Shown piece after piece: positions 2-6,688 of a stretch of DNA of 6,688 nucleotides; position 1 is the first letter of the stretch; each line of letters opens with the position of its first letter. The stretch spans positions 1 to 6,688 of the forward strand of contig JALOPK010000184.1 of the NCBI GenBank assembly GCA_025453925.1, given 5' to 3'. Made by a program: the position numbers and the translations under genes. Origin of the DNA: Candidatus Eiseniibacteriota bacterium. Its GTDB lineage: Bacteria; JAFGKV01. Below the pieces are notes generated by a model. It was not told the origin of the DNA. It saw nothing but the letters and a program-made list of their open reading frames with translations, and did not search any database.

Positions 2-433
2 ATCCTCTTGGCGATGGGCGTACTGAGCATGGGGATAATCCTTTACAGGACGATAGAGAGGATGGGCGGGGGTGGGAGATGGAGGCGCATCATTTTATGG
101 TCGACCGCGGCACTGCATTGTTCAGGTGCGATGGTCCTGGCCTACGCGCTCGGTCCTGATCAGATGGAGCTCCTCATCATGATGTCGTCCGTGCCCCTGG
201 CATACCTGATATGGTATATCTTGAGAAAAGGCGGTCATCCGGCCATTGTAGGCACGGACAAGCTGGCTGGGCTCCGTCACCTGTATCTCTTCGCCGGAGA
301 TGATGTCTTTCTTCGTCACCACGGTAGTCAGCGCGGCTCTGAGTCTCTCGATGGTCTTCTTCGTCTCCTCGGGAAGCTCGGATTGCACGACCTGACTCAT
401 GCGGAGCACGTACTCGTAGCGTTCCGAGAGTGA
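2..433 (+). CDS. 3' part of a multi-pass membrane protein (start outside window, true end doubtful)
   Basis: This frame is open from the left edge to a stop at 431-433 (143 codons). Residues 1-77 look like a real integral membrane protein: a hydrophobic stretch (about 1-16), a basic loop (RTIERMGGGGRWRR), a second helix (about 31-51), a very short GPDQ turn, a third helix (about 56-74), then RKGG. Arginine and lysine cluster at both expected cytoplasmic ends, which fits the positive-inside rule. After about position 235 the frame no longer looks like protein and is codon-for-codon antisense to the minus-strand gene, whose reading is convincing there. The real C-terminus is therefore probably near 235, or the gene is broken there. 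Base composition is closer to even before about 235 than after. Family not recognised. I am fairly sure of the membrane segments and unsure of the stop. Confidence 0.45.
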   Translation: MLLAMGVLSMGIILYRTIERMGGGGRWRRIILWSTAALHCSGAMVLAYALGPDQMELLIMMSSVPLAYLIWYILRKGGHPAIVGTDKLAGLRHLYLFAGDDVFLRHHGSQRGSESLDGLLRLLGKLGLHDLTHAEHVLVAFRE

Positions 434-853
434 GCCTTCGTTGTTCATGACGCTCAATCTGGCGAACTGGTTGTTCTTCACGTCGGCGAGGTCGGGCACG
501 AAGTCCACCAACCTTGAGAGGCTCTCGGCCTGGGCGTACAGGCGGCCGGTGTCCGAGGCCCGCAGTTGCCGCAGGAGTTCCGGTGTCAGTTCCGGCTGAG
601 AGGTCGCGGCACTCCCATCGCCGGTTGTGCCCGTCATGGTCGTACGCATTTCGTCGAGCGCACTCTTTCTGACGACGCCCGTCAATCCCTGAGTCAGGAA
701 GTCGAGATCTCCCGGCGCGATCGGAATACCTGGGGTGCACCAGCTGAAGAAGTTGTCTTCTGACTGGGGCACCGTGTCGTCGCCATTGGTGAGGACGTCG
801 TAGAACTTGGCCATGACTGCATTGGCCATGACGCTTGATGGAACGAGACTCAT
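122..853 (-). CDS. Uncharacterised 243-aa soluble protein, probably truncated at its C-terminus
   Basis: I do not recognise the family. No signal peptide or membrane helix is visible, so it is probably cytoplasmic. Residues 15-63 hold a mixed segment with an aromatic/Cys patch (NFFSWCTPG at 34-42). Residues 71-88 are a Thr/Gly/Ser-rich linker. Residues 88-200 are strongly helical and charged (e.g. ELTPELLRQL, PEETKKTIERLR), suggesting a coiled-coil or helical bundle. The ATG at 853 is preferred over the in-frame TTG at 862 because AGGAGG (868-863) sits 9 nt before it. Quality drops after about residue 210: the last 30 residues are His/charged-rich and are the exact codon complement of a convincing membrane protein on the other strand. 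The native C-terminus is probably missing. The start overlaps the stop of a possible upstream small gene by four bases, and a sigma-54 promoter lies about 420 nt upstream. It could be a structural or secretion-related helical protein, but nothing visible proves this. Confidence 0.6.
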   Translation of the reverse strand: MSLVPSSVMANAVMAKFYDVLTNGDDTVPQSEDNFFSWCTPGIPIAPGDLDFLTQGLTGVVRKSALDEMRTTMTGTTGDGSAATSQPELTPELLRQLRASDTGRLYAQAESLSRLVDFVPDLADVKNNQFARLSVMNNEGSLSERYEYVLRMSQVVQSELPEETKKTIERLRAALTTVVTKKDIISGEEIQVTEPSQLVRAYNGRMTAFSQDIPYQVCQGHGRHHDEELHLIRTERVGQDHRT

Positions 854-1110
854 TTCGCGCAACCTCCTGGGTGAGAGCCATAGGTGCCGTCGAAGGAGAT
901 CGAACCTTCAGGACAGGCGCGGGTGGCATACCCGCCGACCCGGGGGCACGGTGTTTCAGACTCCGGACTGCCGTGGCTTTCGAAGGGCCGGGGCGTTTCG
1001 TCGGGAGGCCGCTCTGACGCGGAACCCGCGTCGATCTCCACCCCGTGTGGTGCCCAACCCGAATGTGTCCGGCACGTCCCCCGCGGTCTGCCCGACTCTG
1101 CTGCTCTCAT
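850..1110 (-). CDS. Possible small Cys-containing protein (86 aa), translationally coupled to the 853 gene
   Basis: The frame starts at ATG 1110, with GGAGG (1120-1116) 5 nt upstream, and ends in a TGA that shares an ATGA with the start of the next gene. This is the classic four-base overlap of coupled operon genes. The product would be rich in Gly/Pro/Ser/Arg/Glu, with four cysteines (13, 55, 66, 84), three of them in the last 32 residues, and no signal peptide. Third codon positions are mostly G or C in the second half, as expected for a real gene here, but less so in the first half. It lies between a sigma-54 promoter and the 853 gene, which would shorten the leader to about 160 nt. No family recognised. 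Low-complexity composition in GC-rich DNA also arises by chance, so this is only a candidate. Confidence 0.3.
   Translation of the reverse strand: MRAAESGRPRGTCRTHSGWAPHGVEIDAGSASERPPDETPRPFESHGSPESETPCPRVGGYATRACPEGSISFDGTYGSHPGGCAK
863..868 (-). promoter_or_regulatory. Ribosome binding site AGGAGG for the 853 start
   Basis: A full AGGAGG lies 9 nt upstream of the ATG at 853. It decides the start, since the in-frame TTG at 862 would directly abut the motif and leave no spacing. Confidence 0.7.
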
Positions 1111-1280: not shown

Positions 1281-1297
1281 CGCATTCGCCGTGCCGG
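1281..1297 (-). promoter_or_regulatory. Sigma-54 (-24/-12) promoter reading toward the 853 gene
   Basis: On the minus strand the sequence reads CCGGCACGGCGAATGCG. It has the GGCACG of the -24 element and ATGC of the -12 element. The invariant GG (1295-1294) and GC (1283-1282) are separated by exactly 10 bases, as sigma-54 requires. The expected start site is near 1270. The dyad at 1370-1390 is centred about 110 bp upstream of that, an ordinary distance for an enhancer-binding protein site. The only clear departures from consensus are CC for TT before the GG and A for the first T of TTGC. Confidence 0.5.
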
Positions 1298-1369: not shown

Positions 1370-1390
1370 GGTGCGACAGATTGTCGCACC
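1370..1390. promoter_or_regulatory. Perfect 9-bp-arm dyad (GGTGCGACA-N3-TGTCGCACC), candidate activator site
   Basis: Left arm 1370-1378, spacer GAT, right arm 1382-1390, with no mismatch. The three-base centre and long arms are typical of a dimeric helix-turn-helix binding site rather than a terminator, and no T-run follows on either strand. It lies upstream of the minus-strand sigma-54 promoter at the usual enhancer distance. The core recurs at 1580-1598. Confidence 0.55.
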
Positions 1391-1579
1391 CTGATAGAGG
1401 AGCACGAGGGGATCCGCTGGGCGGCCGCGGCAGGGCGCGCTCTTGTGACAGCGGCGCAGCACGAGGCCGGCCAAAACCTTGCGCGCCAATGCGAAGCTGG
1501 CGCAGAAACTGCGATCTGACGGCTGGGTTCAGGGCTGCAAAAGCCCGAAAGATGCCGCGATTTGGGGCATTGGCGGCAG

Positions 1580-1598
1580 GTGCGACAAAGTGTCGCAC
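1580..1598. promoter_or_regulatory. Perfect 8-bp-arm dyad (GTGCGACA-N3-TGTCGCAC), second copy of the same site
   Basis: Arms 1580-1587 and 1591-1598 with spacer AAG. Both arms are identical to the inner eight bases of the dyad at 1370-1390, with the same three-base centre but a different spacer sequence. That is what a protein binding site, rather than a duplicated stretch, would look like. It is about 210 bp further from the sigma-54 promoter and may be an auxiliary enhancer site. Confidence 0.5.
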
Positions 1599-1787
1599 GG
1601 TGGCGAAATGCCGCACCCGTGTCCATTGGCGTGCGCCCTGCCAGGACTCGTTCCACGAGCTCACCGAACGTGACCTGACTGCCCATGAAGAGCGACTGGA
1701 CGTTCGGTCTGATGGTTGACTTGGAGGGGGCGGTATCGGCGAAGGATCGAGGAGCTGGGCTGACTCAGAGGAATGCGGGCATTTTCG

Positions 1788-1813
1788 CCACTATTCTCAT
1801 ATTAGAATAGTGG
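1788..1813. promoter_or_regulatory. 26-bp AT-rich palindrome, probable operator
   Basis: Arms CCACTATTCT (1788-1797) and AGAATAGTGG (1804-1813) are perfect complements. The six-base centre CATATT is itself palindromic apart from its outer pair, so only one base pair in 26 breaks the symmetry. It is strikingly AT-rich inside GC-rich DNA. No T-run follows on either strand, which argues against an intrinsic terminator for the lipoprotein gene that ends at 1944. The form resembles operators of small winged-helix repressors (PadR, BlaI and ArsR types), but no specific regulator can be named and none is encoded here. Confidence 0.5.
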
Positions 1814-1845
1814 TGATCGCGGCTCGCCAACCGCCCACCCGAGAC

Positions 1846-1915
1846 GATTGGCACCGCTCGGGAGTCTGACGCATCACGAGACGACGCCCGGTTGCCCCTC
1901 TTCCCGGTGCCAATC
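1846..1915. repeat. 11-bp perfect inverted repeat with 48-nt interior
   Basis: GATTGGCACCG at 1846-1856 and CGGTGCCAATC at 1905-1915 are perfect complements separated by 48 nt. CGAGACGA also occurs twice as a direct repeat, beside and inside the structure (about 1840 and 1877). It lies just downstream of the stop of the minus-strand lipoprotein gene, so it could be a long-loop 3' structure of that mRNA or the ends of a tiny degenerate repeat element. No T-run supports intrinsic termination. Confidence 0.4.
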
Positions 1916-1943
1916 CAGCCTGCTGTTACTGCTCCTCGCGGTA

Positions 1944-2438
1944 CTACTTGCGCGGGCCTCGCCTGATGGCGAACCCCTTGGCGGTGACACCAACAACGGA
2001 CCTCGGGCTTATCGGGACCGATTGGGTGCCTTCCCTAGAGACTCGCGCCTCAGTGTACACAACAGGTTCGGCGGTCGTGAACTCGAGATCCACGACCGCA
2101 TCCGCTCCCATCGTCCTTGCCTGCTCGTAGACGGCATCAAGAAGTGCCTCGGTCACCTTCTCCTCTCGCCATTCCCACACATAGCGAGTGTACCGTCCAT
2201 AAGGGCGCGTGAATCCGACTTGCTCTTGTTCGGGAATCACGGTCACCGTAAGGATCCCGACTCCATCATACTCCCCTTGGTACGTGTGCGGCGTGAACAG
2301 AAACCCTTCCGCGGCATACTTCGAGAAGTTGAGACCAGGGATCTCGGTGTTCCGTGGGATGTACAGGTATCGTCCCGGGGTGCACGCTACGCCTCCAAGC
2401 ACGAACACCAGCGAGCAGAGGATCAGCCGTCTGACCAA
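1944..2438 (-). CDS. Small outer-membrane-type lipoprotein, YbjQ-like domain suspected
   Basis: 164 residues. The N-terminus has basic residues (VRR), a hydrophobic core (5-17) and a lipobox ending GGVAC, so Cys19 should be lipidated after signal peptidase II cleavage. Position +2 is Thr rather than Asp, so outer-membrane sorting is the default expectation. The mature part runs through GFLFTPHTYQGEYDGVGILTVTVIPE, then a helix with AVYEQARTMGADAVVDLEF (about 103-121), and ends in VTAKGFAIRR. An ALxxAYxxAxxxGADAVV helix followed by a strand, with a terminal GFAIR strand, recalls YbjQ/heavy-metal-binding-like small domains seen in Bacteroidetes-type lipoproteins. This is from memory, so family membership is tentative. 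It starts with TTG: GGGAGG (2450-2445) lies 6 nt upstream and no ATG or GTG fits. It is transcribed alone. Function unknown. Confidence 0.8.
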   Translation of the reverse strand: MVRRLILCSLVFVLGGVACTPGRYLYIPRNTEIPGLNFSKYAAEGFLFTPHTYQGEYDGVGILTVTVIPEQEQVGFTRPYGRYTRYVWEWREEKVTEALLDAVYEQARTMGADAVVDLEFTTAEPVVYTEARVSREGTQSVPISPRSVVGVTAKGFAIRRGPRK

Positions 2439-2444
2439 GTAACA

Positions 2445-2450
2445 CCTCCC
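2445..2450 (-). promoter_or_regulatory. Ribosome binding site GGGAGG that fixes the TTG start at 2438
   Basis: GGGAGG is separated by 6 nt from TTG at 2438. The signal peptide begins immediately after, so the unusual start codon is well supported. Confidence 0.65.
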
Positions 2451-2525
2451 GTTCCGGTGATGGCTGACTGGTCACGAATCACCACACACCACGCCTTCCG
2501 GGCTAGAAGCGGAAGCGGGGTCAAG

Positions 2526-2550
2526 CATTGTATTATTGCATTACGAGATT
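2526..2550 (-). promoter_or_regulatory. AT-rich patch, likely promoter zone of the lipoprotein gene
   Basis: A short AT-rich island, reading TAATGCAATAATACAATGC on the minus strand, lies about 90-110 nt upstream of the lipoprotein start in otherwise GC-rich DNA. It contains -10-like hexamers (TAATAC, TACAAT). I cannot pair them with a good -35 at standard spacing, so the exact promoter is not assigned. Confidence 0.2.
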
Positions 2551-3134
2551 GAGAGGGTACCGATGGAGGGAGGATCAAGGGATCGGCGTGCGAAGAAACG
2601 CACCCCGTGGGAGTGAGATCCCGCGGAGAGGAAGGAGAAGCCCCAACTTGCTGGACGACGTGCACAGCCACCCCCAGTGGCGTGTGTCCTGCCGGCGAAT
2701 CGAAACGAAGCCGGCCGTGATGGTTGAGTGACTGTGCCGGAAGGAACGCGTTGGCGGGTCTCAGTCAACAGGGAACGCTTCGGGTTGGCCTCGGTGACGT
2801 TGAATGCGAAACCTGGGATGCCTCAGCAGGATGAATCGGATAGGGGCCGAGGAAGGCTCAACGCGCCTGGCGATGGGTCCGGAGCTGCGCCGTCAGGTCG
2901 GACGCTCGCTGGGTGATCGGTTTGGATCCGTGCGAGCAACGGCGCAGCGGATTCCCAGGGGCGGGATTCGGCGAGGGCGAGGATCGCCGCGGTGCGGAAA
3001 CACCTCCTGAGCAGGCACTCCCTGCTTCGGTGTCCAGGCAGTCCGGACCATGTGAAGGCCGTTGCCCCGGGAAGACAGTTGCAGGCTGTCAGACCGCTGA
3101 GGGCGTGGGAAGCCCGGCACCCGGCGTGAGAAGC

Positions 3135-3165
3135 TGGCGCCGAGGCGCCACGCGAGCGAAGCGTG
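3135..3165. repeat. Two overlapping short hairpins (TGGCGCC/GGCGCCA and CACGC/GCGTG)
   Basis: TGGCGCC at 3135-3141 and GGCGCCA at 3144-3150 form a perfect 7-bp dyad with a 2-nt centre. CACGC at 3149-3153 pairs with GCGTG at 3161-3165 around a 7-nt loop and shares two bases with the first dyad, so the two are partly exclusive. A further TCGC/GCGA stem follows at 3187-3199. No T-run follows, so termination is unlikely; protein binding or RNA structure are alternatives. Confidence 0.35.
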
Positions 3166-3221
3166 ATCCCACTGTCTCGCGCCACTTCGCTGATCGCGAC
3201 TTCAGTGCGCAGAATCGCCAG

Positions 3222-3236
3222 TGCGGTGGCACCGCA
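3222..3236. promoter_or_regulatory. 15-bp perfect palindrome TGCGGTG-G-CACCGCA, possible activator site
   Basis: Arms 3222-3228 and 3230-3236 are perfect complements around a single base. The centre is about 180 bp upstream of the propeller gene's ATG and about 120 bp upstream of the start expected from the weak -24/-12 element at 3324-3340. Its half-site differs in sequence and spacing from the TGTCGCAC dyads, so it is not counted as a copy of that site. Confidence 0.3.
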
Positions 3237-3323
3237 GGCCATTCACGCCGCATGCGCCTTTCCCCGCGACCGATGCGCGGGCAGACGCAGCCGGTGCCGG
3301 CGTGATCTCCCGAATCGCTCGGC

Positions 3324-3340
3324 GCGGGTTGGGGATTGCA
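3324..3340 (+). promoter_or_regulatory. Weak sigma-54-like element before the propeller gene
   Basis: GG (3326-3327) and GC (3338-3339) are exactly 10 bases apart and the -12 part reads ATTGCA, a good match. The -24 part reads GGGTTG instead of GGCACG, a poor match. The start site would be near 3351, leaving a leader of about 57 nt. An alternative sigma-70-type reading, with TTGCAC at 3336 and TAGTTT at 3359 or 3360, is equally weak. Confidence 0.2.
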
Positions 3341-3395
3341 CCCACCCGCCCGGCTTCGTAGTTTGACTATGGTCGGTTCAAACCAAGGGCTGTTC

Positions 3396-3402
3396 AAGGA
3401 GG
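3396..3402 (+). promoter_or_regulatory. Ribosome binding site AAGGAGG for the 3408 start
   Basis: AAGGAGG lies 5 nt before ATG 3408. It selects this ATG over the earlier in-frame ATG at 3336, which lacks a ribosome site and would bury the signal peptide. Confidence 0.8.
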
Positions 3403-3407
3403 GGCAC

Positions 3408-5771
3408 ATGCGCGTCAGTTCCATTGCTCTGCTGGTCGCGATCACCGTTGGCGCACCACCAACCCTCCAGGCCACGGAGTGGCTGATCCAGGGCGTGGAC
3501 TGCCCGAAGCGGTTCGGCGCCATGTCCGATCGGCACCTGAAGCTCGATTCGTCGCTCCTGCCTCATCTGGTCTACGGAGAAGACCACCTCTACCATGCCT
3601 GGTTCGACGGCGCCGCCTGGAACCACGAAACCGTTGATCCGGAAGACCTGAGCGGGCGATACGCGTGTCTGGCCATTTCGGGCAACGGTGATCTCCACGT
3701 CAGCTATGCGGGCGGATTCAGCGATGCCCTGAAGTACGCGGTGAAAAGCGGCGGCATGTGGACCATCGAGACCGTGGACGGGGTGGTCGGATACGGCACG
3801 TCGTTGGCGGTGACCTCATCCGGCATTCCCTGCATCAGCTACTACGACAATGGGAACCAGGATCTGAGGCATGCCCGCCGGGAGGCCTCCGGGTGGATCA
3901 TCGACATCGTGGACAGCAAGGGAGACGTGGGGATGGGCGCATCTTTGGTCCTCGATGAGGATGATCACCCGCACGTCAGCTACTGCGAGCACCCGGCCCA
4001 TCGAGTGAAGTATGCCCATGATGACGGGTCGGGATGGGCGACCCAGATCGCGGATGCCGGTGATGACTTCCCCACCGCGACGTCCATCGCAAGAGGCAAC
4101 GACGGTTCACTGCACATCGCGTTCCTTGCGCGGTTTCATCTGGAGCCGGACGCGTGCCTGCTGAAGTATGCCTTCAAGCCCGGGCCAGCAGATCCCTGGC
4201 AGACGGAAGACCTTGGTTTCGTTGCTGACGAGGCGGAGCCGGGGTCCATCGTTCTTGACCAGCGCGGCGTTCCCCACATCGCCTACCATGCGGACGGTGA
4301 TCTGAAACTCGCGTATAGGGACGAAGCCGGGTGGCACGTCGAAGCCTTGTACGCACCGGGATATGGAGGGGACTCTCCTTCGCTGGTCATCGAGGGGGGC
4401 ACGCTGCACGCGAGCTTCTACGAATTGAACGACGACGCCATGTACTACTTGACCAAGACCGGGGAGTCGACGTCGGTGGAACCGGTCGATGTCGAAGGCA
4501 GCGCGGGCCGGGGCAGCTCCATCGCGGTGTCTTCCGCCAATTACCCCTCCATCAGCTACTATCGTAACGAGGTGTTCGACCGACTCGCGTACGCATATGA
4601 AGACCAACGCGGGTGGCATGTCGAGATGGTGGACAGCTCCGGAATGAGCGGCATCAGCAGCTCGCTGGCCTTGGATTCCGCCGACCGCGCCCACATCGCG
4701 TACGGCGAGGGCCTCGAGGTCGACCTGAAGTATGCCCGCAGGGATGGGACGGGCTGGAGAGTCACCACCGTTGACAGTGAAGGCAGCGTCGGTCACTGGG
4801 CCTCTCTTGCCCTTGATGCGGGCGGGTTTCCCCACATCAGCTACGCGGATTGGACGATCGGATGGAACATGAAGTACGCGTATGAGGATGGTGGAGGCTG
4901 GCATGTGGAGACCTTCGATGACGCATGGATGGTAGGAAACCGGAGCTCCATTGCGGTGGACTCGAACGGGAGGCCGCATGTCATCTATGTGTCGTTGGTC
5001 CAGGTCGAGTTGCTCAAGTACGCATGGAAGGACGCGGTCACCTGGCACAGAGAAGTGGTCGGATCTGGCGAGTTCCAGGATGCCTCGATCGCCCTCGACG
5101 CCAACGACATTCCGCATATCTGCTACACCGCCTGGGAGAACAACACTCTGGCGTATGCGCGACGATTCCACGGAGTGTGGCAGACGGAGATCGTGGCGGA
5201 GGGTGTCTCCATGCTCTCGGCGCCGTCAATCACGCTGGATGTCGCGGGATTCCCGCATATCGCGTACTCCAGCGGTGTGCCGGATCTGGACCTGAGATAT
5301 GCCTACAAGGACGGCCTGGGGTGGCACCTCCTCACGGCGGATCCGGACGGCGCTTCCATGTGGGGCACGGATATCGCGCTGGACGGCGCCGGCATCCCGC
5401 ACATGAGCTACTTCAAGCCGACGATGGAAGACCTGATCTACGTACGGATGGCACAACCCCAGCAGCTCATGATGAACTGGGCGCTGGTCGAGGACGCGAT
5501 CAGTCTCTCATGGATCCCCATCCCCCAGGCGTCGGCCTACTGGGTCTACGGCGCCGCCAACCATCCTCATTTCGCCCCTGGCATGACACCCGGATACGAG
5601 TACCGGCTGGAAATCCTGCCTCCCGGCACGACCTCCTGGATCACCGCGGACTCGCCGGGAACCCCCGATTGCGATTGGACCTACTTGATCATCGCAGTGG
5701 ATGCGTCGGAAGATGAATTGGGGCGGTCGGTTCGAGTCGGGGAGTTCGATTCCCTGATGGATATCCCCTGA
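3408..5771 (+). CDS. Secreted 14-repeat beta-propeller-like protein with C-terminal FN3-like domain
   Basis: 787 residues. Residues 1-22 are a signal peptide (hydrophobic MRVSSIALLVAITVGAPPTLQA, cleavage expected after LQA), so the product is exported. Residues about 45-680 contain 14 copies of a roughly 47-residue unit: a blade-like core SLALD..G.PHISY, then LKYAYxDGxGWHVETVDxxG. The PHISY-type strand recurs at residues 52, 96, 141, 188, 235, 289, 333, 380, 428, 475, 523, 569, 616 and 664. The unit matches the general look of beta-propeller blades; 14 is twice seven, which suggests two seven-bladed propellers. Residues about 685-776 form a fibronectin-III-like module (ISLSWIPIPQASAYWVYGA ... 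WTYLIIAVDASEDELGRSV). No catalytic motif, sortase, PEP-CTERM or gliding-type sorting tail is seen. It is probably a cell-surface or extracellular binding protein; ligand unknown. It stands alone in its transcription unit. Confidence 0.9.
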   Translation: MRVSSIALLVAITVGAPPTLQATEWLIQGVDCPKRFGAMSDRHLKLDSSLLPHLVYGEDHLYHAWFDGAAWNHETVDPEDLSGRYACLAISGNGDLHVSYAGGFSDALKYAVKSGGMWTIETVDGVVGYGTSLAVTSSGIPCISYYDNGNQDLRHARREASGWIIDIVDSKGDVGMGASLVLDEDDHPHVSYCEHPAHRVKYAHDDGSGWATQIADAGDDFPTATSIARGNDGSLHIAFLARFHLEPDACLLKYAFKPGPADPWQTEDLGFVADEAEPGSIVLDQRGVPHIAYHADGDLKLAYRDEAGWHVEALYAPGYGGDSPSLVIEGGTLHASFYELNDDAMYYLTKTGESTSVEPVDVEGSAGRGSSIAVSSANYPSISYYRNEVFDRLAYAYEDQRGWHVEMVDSSGMSGISSSLALDSADRAHIAYGEGLEVDLKYARRDGTGWRVTTVDSEGSVGHWASLALDAGGFPHISYADWTIGWNMKYAYEDGGGWHVETFDDAWMVGNRSSIAVDSNGRPHVIYVSLVQVELLKYAWKDAVTWHREVVGSGEFQDASIALDANDIPHICYTAWENNTLAYARRFHGVWQTEIVAEGVSMLSAPSITLDVAGFPHIAYSSGVPDLDLRYAYKDGLGWHLLTADPDGASMWGTDIALDGAGIPHMSYFKPTMEDLIYVRMAQPQQLMMNWALVEDAISLSWIPIPQASAYWVYGAANHPHFAPGMTPGYEYRLEILPPGTTSWITADSPGTPDCDWTYLIIAVDASEDELGRSVRVGEFDSLMDIP
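3543..5447 (+). repeat. 14 tandem about 47-residue coding repeats
   Basis: Spacing between successive PHISY-type strands is 44, 45, 47, 47, 54, 44, 47, 48, 47, 48, 46, 47 and 48 residues. Copies 9-11 are the most regular. Copy 5 to 6 has the longest insertion (extra residues around ARFHLEPDA and KPGPADP). DNA identity between copies is modest, so the repeats are old and diverged rather than freshly duplicated. Confidence 0.8.
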
Positions 5772-5786
5772 TTCCCTCGAGGGGAT
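5763..5786 (+). terminator. Possible hairpin at the stop codon of the propeller gene
   Basis: ATCCCCT (5763-5769) pairs with AGGGGAT (5780-5786) around a 10-nt loop that holds part of an alternative 10-bp palindrome, CCCTCGAGGG (5774-5783). The stem begins within the last codons. No T-run follows, so it is a weak intrinsic terminator at best and may only protect the 3' end. Confidence 0.25.
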
Positions 5787-6288
5787 CGAGGCCGGGGTGC
5801 AGGGTCAGAGTGCCGGAATTCCGTCCGCTGCGCGGAGAGTCCGGGGAGCAATCAGCAGTCCGGGCGGCAAGACCCCGCTCAACCCCGGCGTCTCCCCCCG
5901 GGGAGAAGGGGTGTCCTCTCCGCCGAATCCTCTGTGCGCACTCATGCTACCCTGCGCACGCATGGCCGTTCGCGAAAGGACGGCGCACCCGGGCAGAGGG
6001 CGCACCTGTCTGCTGCCACCGCATCTCACGCCGACACTGTCACGTGTGTCCCGTGTCCAGTCTCCGAAAGGGGGAGGGCTCGACACTGCCCTCACATGGC
6101 CCTCTCCCGGGCAGGCGGAGGTTGGCGAGCGAAGAGGAAGGGAGGGCAGGGAAGGCGTTCCGCTCCAGACCCTCCCGGCGCTCAGCCAGAACGCCCCGAC
6201 GCCATGGACCCAGGGGTCCGGCCGTCCCCCGGTGACCGAATCGTTGTGCCCCCCCCGGCTCACTCCCAAGCCCGTCCGCTCGATGGGC
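5772..6288. other. Non-coding, CT/AG-rich intergenic region
   Basis: No convincing gene is present. The overlapping frames on both strands are Pro/Arg/Ser/Gly-rich. A perfect 7-bp hairpin TCTCCCC-CC-GGGGAGA lies at 5891-5906. Similar CCTCTCCC/GGGAGG-flavoured stretches recur around 6061-6075 and 6101-6150, recalling degenerate intergenic repeats of GC-rich genomes. GTGTC or its complement occurs four times between 6033 and 6086. No T-run terminator was seen. Confidence 0.4.
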
Positions 6289-6303
6289 GAGACACGGTGT
6301 CTC
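6289..6303. promoter_or_regulatory. Perfect dyad GAGACA-CGG-TGTCTC, candidate activator site for the 6498 gene
   Basis: The arms 6289-6294 and 6298-6303 are perfect complements around a 3-nt centre; the outer centre bases also pair, so it can be read as 7-bp arms around one base. The right half reads TGTCTCAT against TGTCGCAC in the dyads at 1370 and 1580: TGTC, the sixth-position C and the following A are shared, and the spacer is the same length. Its centre is about 127 bp upstream of the start site predicted from the sigma-54 promoter at 6397. Confidence 0.45.
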
Positions 6304-6396: not shown

Positions 6397-6412
6397 TGGC
6401 ATGGGCATTGCA
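6397..6412 (+). promoter_or_regulatory. Sigma-54 (-24/-12) promoter for the 6498 gene
   Basis: TGGCATGGGCATTGCA has the invariant GG (6398-6399) and GC (6410-6411) exactly 10 bases apart. It has TGGCAT at -24 and a full TTGCA at -12, close to the TGGCACG-N4-TTGCA consensus. The start site is expected near 6423, giving a leader of about 75 nt before ATG 6498. The surrounding 6340-6500 is more AT-rich than the DNA on its left. Confidence 0.65.
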
Positions 6413-6497: not shown

Positions 6498-6688
6498 ATG
6501 AGACTCACCGCAACGATCGCTCTGATGATCGCAGTTCTTGCCGGCGCTATCACGTCTTCGGATGCGGAGACCAAGCCGCTGTTCGGAAAGATCCATGGCA
6601 GGGTGTACGCCGATGGGAACGTCGTGGCCAAGGCAATTGTGGAGTTCGTGATCATGGCCGACACAGGGGAGGAGTTCCACGCGAGGAC
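6498..6688 (+). CDS. N-terminus of a secreted protein with a carboxypeptidase-regulatory-like domain (runs off window)
   Basis: The first 63 residues are visible. GAGG (6486-6489) lies 8 nt before the ATG. Residues 1-23 form a signal peptide (MRLT, then hydrophobic ATIALMIAVLAGAI, then small residues TSSDA). From residue 29 the sequence FGKIHGRVYADGNVVAKAIVEFV...TGEEFHAR has the GxVxxxxGxxxxxAxVxF...TGE pattern of carboxypeptidase-regulatory-like (CarboxypepD_reg / peptidase-associated) Ig-fold domains. These commonly decorate secreted enzymes and TonB-dependent transport proteins. Whatever follows the domain is outside the window, so the function cannot be given. A strong sigma-54 promoter and upstream dyad indicate activator-dependent expression. 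Confidence 0.75.
   Translation, partial: MRLTATIALMIAVLAGAITSSDAETKPLFGKIHGRVYADGNVVAKAIVEFVIMADTGEEFHAR

Follow-up and report, generated by a model that had tools for sequence, protein, structure and literature searches.

Two short inverted repeats in the 6,688-nucleotide stretch of Candidatus Eiseniibacteriota DNA analysed here (hereafter the window, which is the entire contig C196 of the host genome) are probably upstream activating sequences (UAS) for a 1684-amino-acid sigma-54 enhancer-binding protein (EBP), fused to a kinase and encoded on another contig of the same genome, C273. They would belong to a small regulon whose other members lie on C273, and not at the third inverted repeat of the window, at position 6289, which would fall outside it. 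This interpretation is based on the rarity of the dyads genome-wide, their conservation across genera, a recurrent 84-bp distance to the promoter, and their co-occurrence with the activator gene. An earlier note on this DNA had proposed that the dyads upstream of sigma-54 promoters are the activator sites of a regulon, and on the same four grounds this proposal is supported for the first two.

Two rare dyads in the window

The host genome (G000) comprises 3.9 Mb in 502 contigs, and is 82% complete. Patterns were counted over the whole of it and set against a reversed-pattern control, while dyad counts within the window were set against dinucleotide shuffles. Dyad 1, GTGCGACA-GAT-TGTCGCAC, spans residues 1371–1389 (centre 1380) and is the candidate proximal UAS; dyad 2, GTGCGACA-AAG-TGTCGCAC, spans 1580–1598 and is a distal copy. 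Both have perfect 8-bp arms around a 3-nt centre, and no strand is assigned to either. Dyad 2 lies 209 bp further upstream than dyad 1, about 20 helical turns, which would place the two on the same face of the DNA.

Dyads with 8-bp arms and a 3-nt centre occur twice in the window, against a mean of 0.17 per shuffled window. Those with 6-bp arms, like the third dyad, occur five times against a shuffled mean of 2.3, and among them the ones at 1017 and 3222 are unrelated. Judged by these counts, dyads 1 and 2 stand out, whereas the third does not. The three dyads of one design described in the earlier note are thus all present, but only the first two form one set.

The 17-bp core TGCGACA-N3-TGTCGCA has five copies in the host genome (reversed control, 0), split over two loci, with two in the window and three on C273, and sigma-54-like promoters adjoin both loci. 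The shorter pattern GCGACA-N3-TGTCGC returns exactly the same five. Among the copies the arms are fixed and the centres variable, the two loci have no flanking sequence in common, and no Rfam match was found.

Two routes to further members were followed and then set aside. The 15-bp core with one mismatch occurs 13 times, against a total of 25 for the control pattern, and no convincing sigma-54 promoter lies 84 bp from any of the copies examined. A half-site followed by GG-N10-GC at 84 ± 2 bp gave 32 matches in G000 against 29 for the control; the known dyads are included, and the remainder is at background level.

The activator locus on contig C273

The three C273 dyads (at 8055, 8505 and 8524 in the coordinates of this locus, L022) are located upstream of the gene for the 1684-residue protein, and flank it and two divergent neighbours. 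From the N-terminus, this protein consists of Pkinase, TPR, GAF, Sigma54_activat and Fis-type HTH_8 domains. Its sigma-54 AAA+ domain (PF00158, E = 2.9e-66) includes the GAFTGA loop, and a Fis-type helix-turn-helix (HTH) is found at the C-terminus (PF02954, E = 6e-8, residues 1623–1662), so that it has both the ATPase and the DNA-binding features of a sigma-54 EBP.

The first dyad (8055–8073) ends 28 bp before the activator start codon. The divergent neighbours are a gene for an exported 63-residue peptide (8237–8428) and, from 8678 onwards, a small conserved gene. Ahead of this small gene, at 8662, stands TGGAACGCGGCTTGCA, which has the highest score of all sigma-54 matches on that contig under the scoring applied. 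The tandem dyads at 8505–8542 are mutual reverse complements, and together form a perfect 17+2+17 palindrome.

The exported peptide is found beside the kinase-EBP gene in two genera (8237–8428 in L022; 11274–11513 in L030, the corresponding locus of G002). It is 63–79 residues long, with a conserved DG..DDDPSPG motif, and shows no match to a known family.

Conservation and spacing

Three genomes of the phylum were compared: the host, G001 (same genus as the window, 94% complete) and G002 (sister genus). G002 encodes a full-length activator orthologue (49% identity), the peptide gene and the small gene (37% identity over 118 amino acids), in the same order and with one perfect dyad; G001 lacks the dyad, the small gene and any full-length activator. 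Dyad and activator are therefore both present in G002 and both absent from G001. In an alignment of the region upstream of the peptide genes, the dyad is the longest conserved block, within flanks that have diverged. The recognition region of the HTH is near-identical in G000 and G002 (RRQ[IV]QRLMRR), and apart from the kinase-EBP gene, the conserved locus has no recognisable DNA-binding gene in common between these two genomes.

The spacing between dyad and promoter was taken between the centre of the dyad and the -24 box, counted at its first base. In the window, the candidate sigma-54 promoter is CGGCACGGCGAATGCG (1281–1296, minus strand), a GG-N10-GC sequence with 8 of 10 or more consensus positions, and its -24 box at 1296 lies 84 bp from the centre of dyad 1. 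The same 84 bp recurs at the peptide genes, between 8064 and 8148 on C273 and between 11098 and 11182 in G002. Sites of this quality occur at 0.0006–0.0009 per strand position, below 0.001, so chance is an unlikely explanation for exactly the same spacing at the window gene, which is unrelated. The distances from dyads to transcription start sites given in the earlier note (∼110 and 127 bp) were about right.

Proposed mechanism

From the sites, their distribution and the domains of the C273 protein, I infer the following sequence of events; the steps of binding and activation, the nature of the signal and the direction in which control would run are all put forward conditionally. The Fis-type HTH of the activator would bind TGCGACA-N3-TGTCGCA as a dimer, and DNA looping would bring the AAA+ ring onto the sigma-54 RNA polymerase at the -24/-12 elements, with the -24 box at 84 bp from the centre of the proximal dyad. 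Control of the protein's activity presumably falls to the Ser/Thr kinase, TPR and GAF regions at the N-terminus. The regulon would encompass some three promoters, namely those of the 243-residue gene of the window, of the exported-peptide gene (dyad 8055–8073) and of the small gene (promoter 8662, dyads 8505–8542). Since the dyad at 8055 is so close to the activator start codon, the activator may also regulate its own expression.

Alternative explanations

The third dyad, GAGACACGGTGTCTC (6289–6303, no strand), has 6-bp arms at a 3-nt centre, or 7-bp arms at a 1-nt centre. The promoter that follows it, TGGCATGGGCATTGCA (6397–6412, plus strand), is strong: it has one mismatch to TGGCAC-N5-TTGCW, and is one of only five TGGCAY-N5-TTGCW sites in the host genome. 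Downstream of it, an open reading frame with a signal-peptide-like start (6498–6688, plus strand) encodes the beginning of an exported protein; it is cut by the contig end and has no homologue in G001 or G002. The earlier note had the third dyad join the other two, so that the 243-residue gene and the 6498 gene would be co-regulated, the third site being perhaps a weaker one for the same activator or one for a paralogue. In favour of a single activator, both arms contain TGTC-N-C, the dyad precedes a strong sigma-54 promoter by 101 bp, and it scores 12/16 against the 19-bp motif; scores of 12–13/16 are expected at ∼0.02 per 140-bp zone (about 2% of such zones), and no more than 9/16 is reached at the four remaining strong promoters. 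The four mismatches nonetheless put it outside the core: all perfect-core copies in the two genomes read exactly TGCGACA-N3-TGTCGCA, whereas the third dyad carries a symmetric G-to-T change and lacks the outer bases. Its distance to the -24 box, 101 bp, differs from 84 bp by about 1.6 turns, and dyads of its 6+3+6 class arise about twice per window by chance. GAGACA-N3-TGTCTC is found once in G000, once in G002 and not in G001, and was rejected as a second motif. With mismatches, spacing, uniqueness and class all unfavourable, co-regulation of the two genes is not supported, and a single activator for all three dyads appears distinctly unlikely. The third dyad is probably outside this regulon and may be the site of an unrelated activator. 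That it is a genuine site for a different, paralogous sigma-54 activator is conceivable though doubtful: it stands at a normal enhancer distance from one of the strongest sigma-54 promoters of the genome, and the host encodes many other EBPs, but there is no second copy in the genome, the 6498 gene has no relative in the two other genomes, and dyads of this class are at chance level.

Several observations weigh against the assignment of dyads 1 and 2 to the C273 activator. The promoter at 1296 and those of both peptide genes are 8-point matches only. By sequence alone the former is at chance level (23 matches at threshold, 24.5 expected), so that of the two sigma-54 promoters in the earlier note the one at 6397 stands by its sequence, and the one at 1296 is backed by the 84-bp spacing that recurs at L022 8148 and L030 11182. 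This spacing is not a universal rule, as the tandem dyads are 148 and 129 bp from the promoter at 8662, and no good dyad is found within 200 bp of the corresponding G002 promoter at 12171. With three genomes available for the phylum, the co-occurrence amounts to two presences and one absence. The presence of sigma-54 itself (rpoN) in the host is deduced from its many sigma-54 activator genes, and because the assembly is incomplete (82%), the dyads might instead be bound by a different DNA-binding protein. The dyads could accordingly be operators of a repressor or other DNA-binding protein, adjoined by sigma-54 promoters by chance; the weakness of the 1296 promoter would fit this, as would the dyad at 8055, immediately before the activator start codon and so in a typical operator position. 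This seems unlikely to me, given that the spacing is identical at three promoters, that the strong sigma-54 promoters at L022 8662 and L030 12171 precede orthologous genes of one locus, and that the kinase-EBP is the sole recognisable DNA-binding candidate there. A reading of the dyads as RNA hairpins, or as mobile or repetitive DNA, is highly improbable: the tandem pair on C273 could fold into a hairpin, but the dyads occur at two loci only, without common flanks or an Rfam match, their arms are fixed while the centres vary, and the dyad is kept across genera inside a diverged region.

The 243-residue gene and other features of the window

The candidate target gene in the window is an open reading frame for a 243-residue protein (122–853, minus strand), preceded by the Shine-Dalgarno sequence AGGAGG (863–868, minus strand). 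The protein has no Pfam or NCBIfam match, a PHROGs match at chance level only and no viral relative, and no relative was found among 60 genomes. Its structure model is unusable, with a mean predicted local distance difference test (pLDDT) score of 36. Based on codon-position GC, the coding signature of this gene is gone below about 241, and some 39 C-terminal residues are therefore doubtful.

Near 241 the coding signature changes strand, with the tail of a plus-strand membrane protein before it and the minus-strand 243-residue gene above. This suggests a contig chimera or a rearrangement that truncates the gene, its C-terminal part being probably an assembly junction; no second contig bearing the left-end sequence of the window was found. 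Elsewhere, residues 1944–2438 encode a 164-residue lipoprotein-like protein with a sub-threshold match to YbjQ (heavy-metal-binding), and residues 3408–5771 a secreted 787-residue protein with beta-propeller-like repeats and a weak BNR_4 match.

Comparison with known systems

Activator giants of 1650–1840 residues with the Ser/Thr kinase-TPR-GAF-sigma-54 architecture recur in several other bacterial lineages (L092–L100), with different HTHs. No TGCGACA dyads were found upstream of these, and both features fit a lineage-specific motif. All three phylum genomes also contain, on one strand, a GAF-EBP stretch with a Ser/Thr kinase encoded separately after it (G000:C147, G001:C280, G002:C200), which looks like the fused activator divided over two genes. 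A search of the available literature on kinase-fused EBPs or the TGCGACA motif returned nothing on point, and little on the giants.

NorR is a GAF-type EBP with the operator GTCA-N3-TGAC. Like the C273 activator it has a GAF domain ahead of the AAA+ domain, and its half-sites are likewise inverted and 3 nt apart; the half-site sequence and the recognition helix differ, and NorR is without the kinase and TPR regions. PknK-like regulators, like the C273 protein, have a Hanks kinase at the N-terminus and behind it a long region of ATPase-like and TPR type, but the C273 protein differs in its output, a sigma-54 activator bearing a Fis HTH. In Myxococcus, EBPs with an FHA domain reportedly link Ser/Thr kinase signalling to sigma-54 transcription, the FHA domain reading a separate kinase, whereas on C273 the kinase is fused to the activator itself. 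These FHA-domain EBPs (Jelsbak, 2005) are cited in PMC12288465.

The C273 system is closest in layout to NtrC-type EBPs, with which it shares an AAA+ domain with GAFTGA, a Fis-type HTH, dyads about 100 bp upstream of GG-N10-GC, and a small regulon. NtrC-type proteins possess a receiver domain, in place of which the C273 activator has kinase, TPR and GAF regions in one 1684-residue chain. EBP sites about 100 bp upstream, looping and ATP hydrolysis are established features, and most Desulfovibrio vulgaris EBPs control one to four operons (PMC4641369), with which a regulon of about three promoters is in line. The string TGTCGC does not occur in the searched text of that D. vulgaris paper.

Implications

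A further possibility, which I consider rather unlikely, is that the three or so promoters form a private circuit, in which the adjacent exported peptide, or whatever the peptide responds to, feeds back on the kinase/GAF part of the activator. If true, this would amount to signalling by a Hanks kinase fused to a sigma-54 activator, with a peptide dedicated to it.

Assignment of dyads 1 and 2 to the C273 activator would tie an orphan enhancer motif of a sparsely sampled candidate phylum to one activator with a eukaryotic-type kinase regulatory half, and would provide a compact, testable case of kinase-to-sigma-54 control. It also illustrates that whole-genome counting can separate the real members of a motif found by eye from those due to chance.

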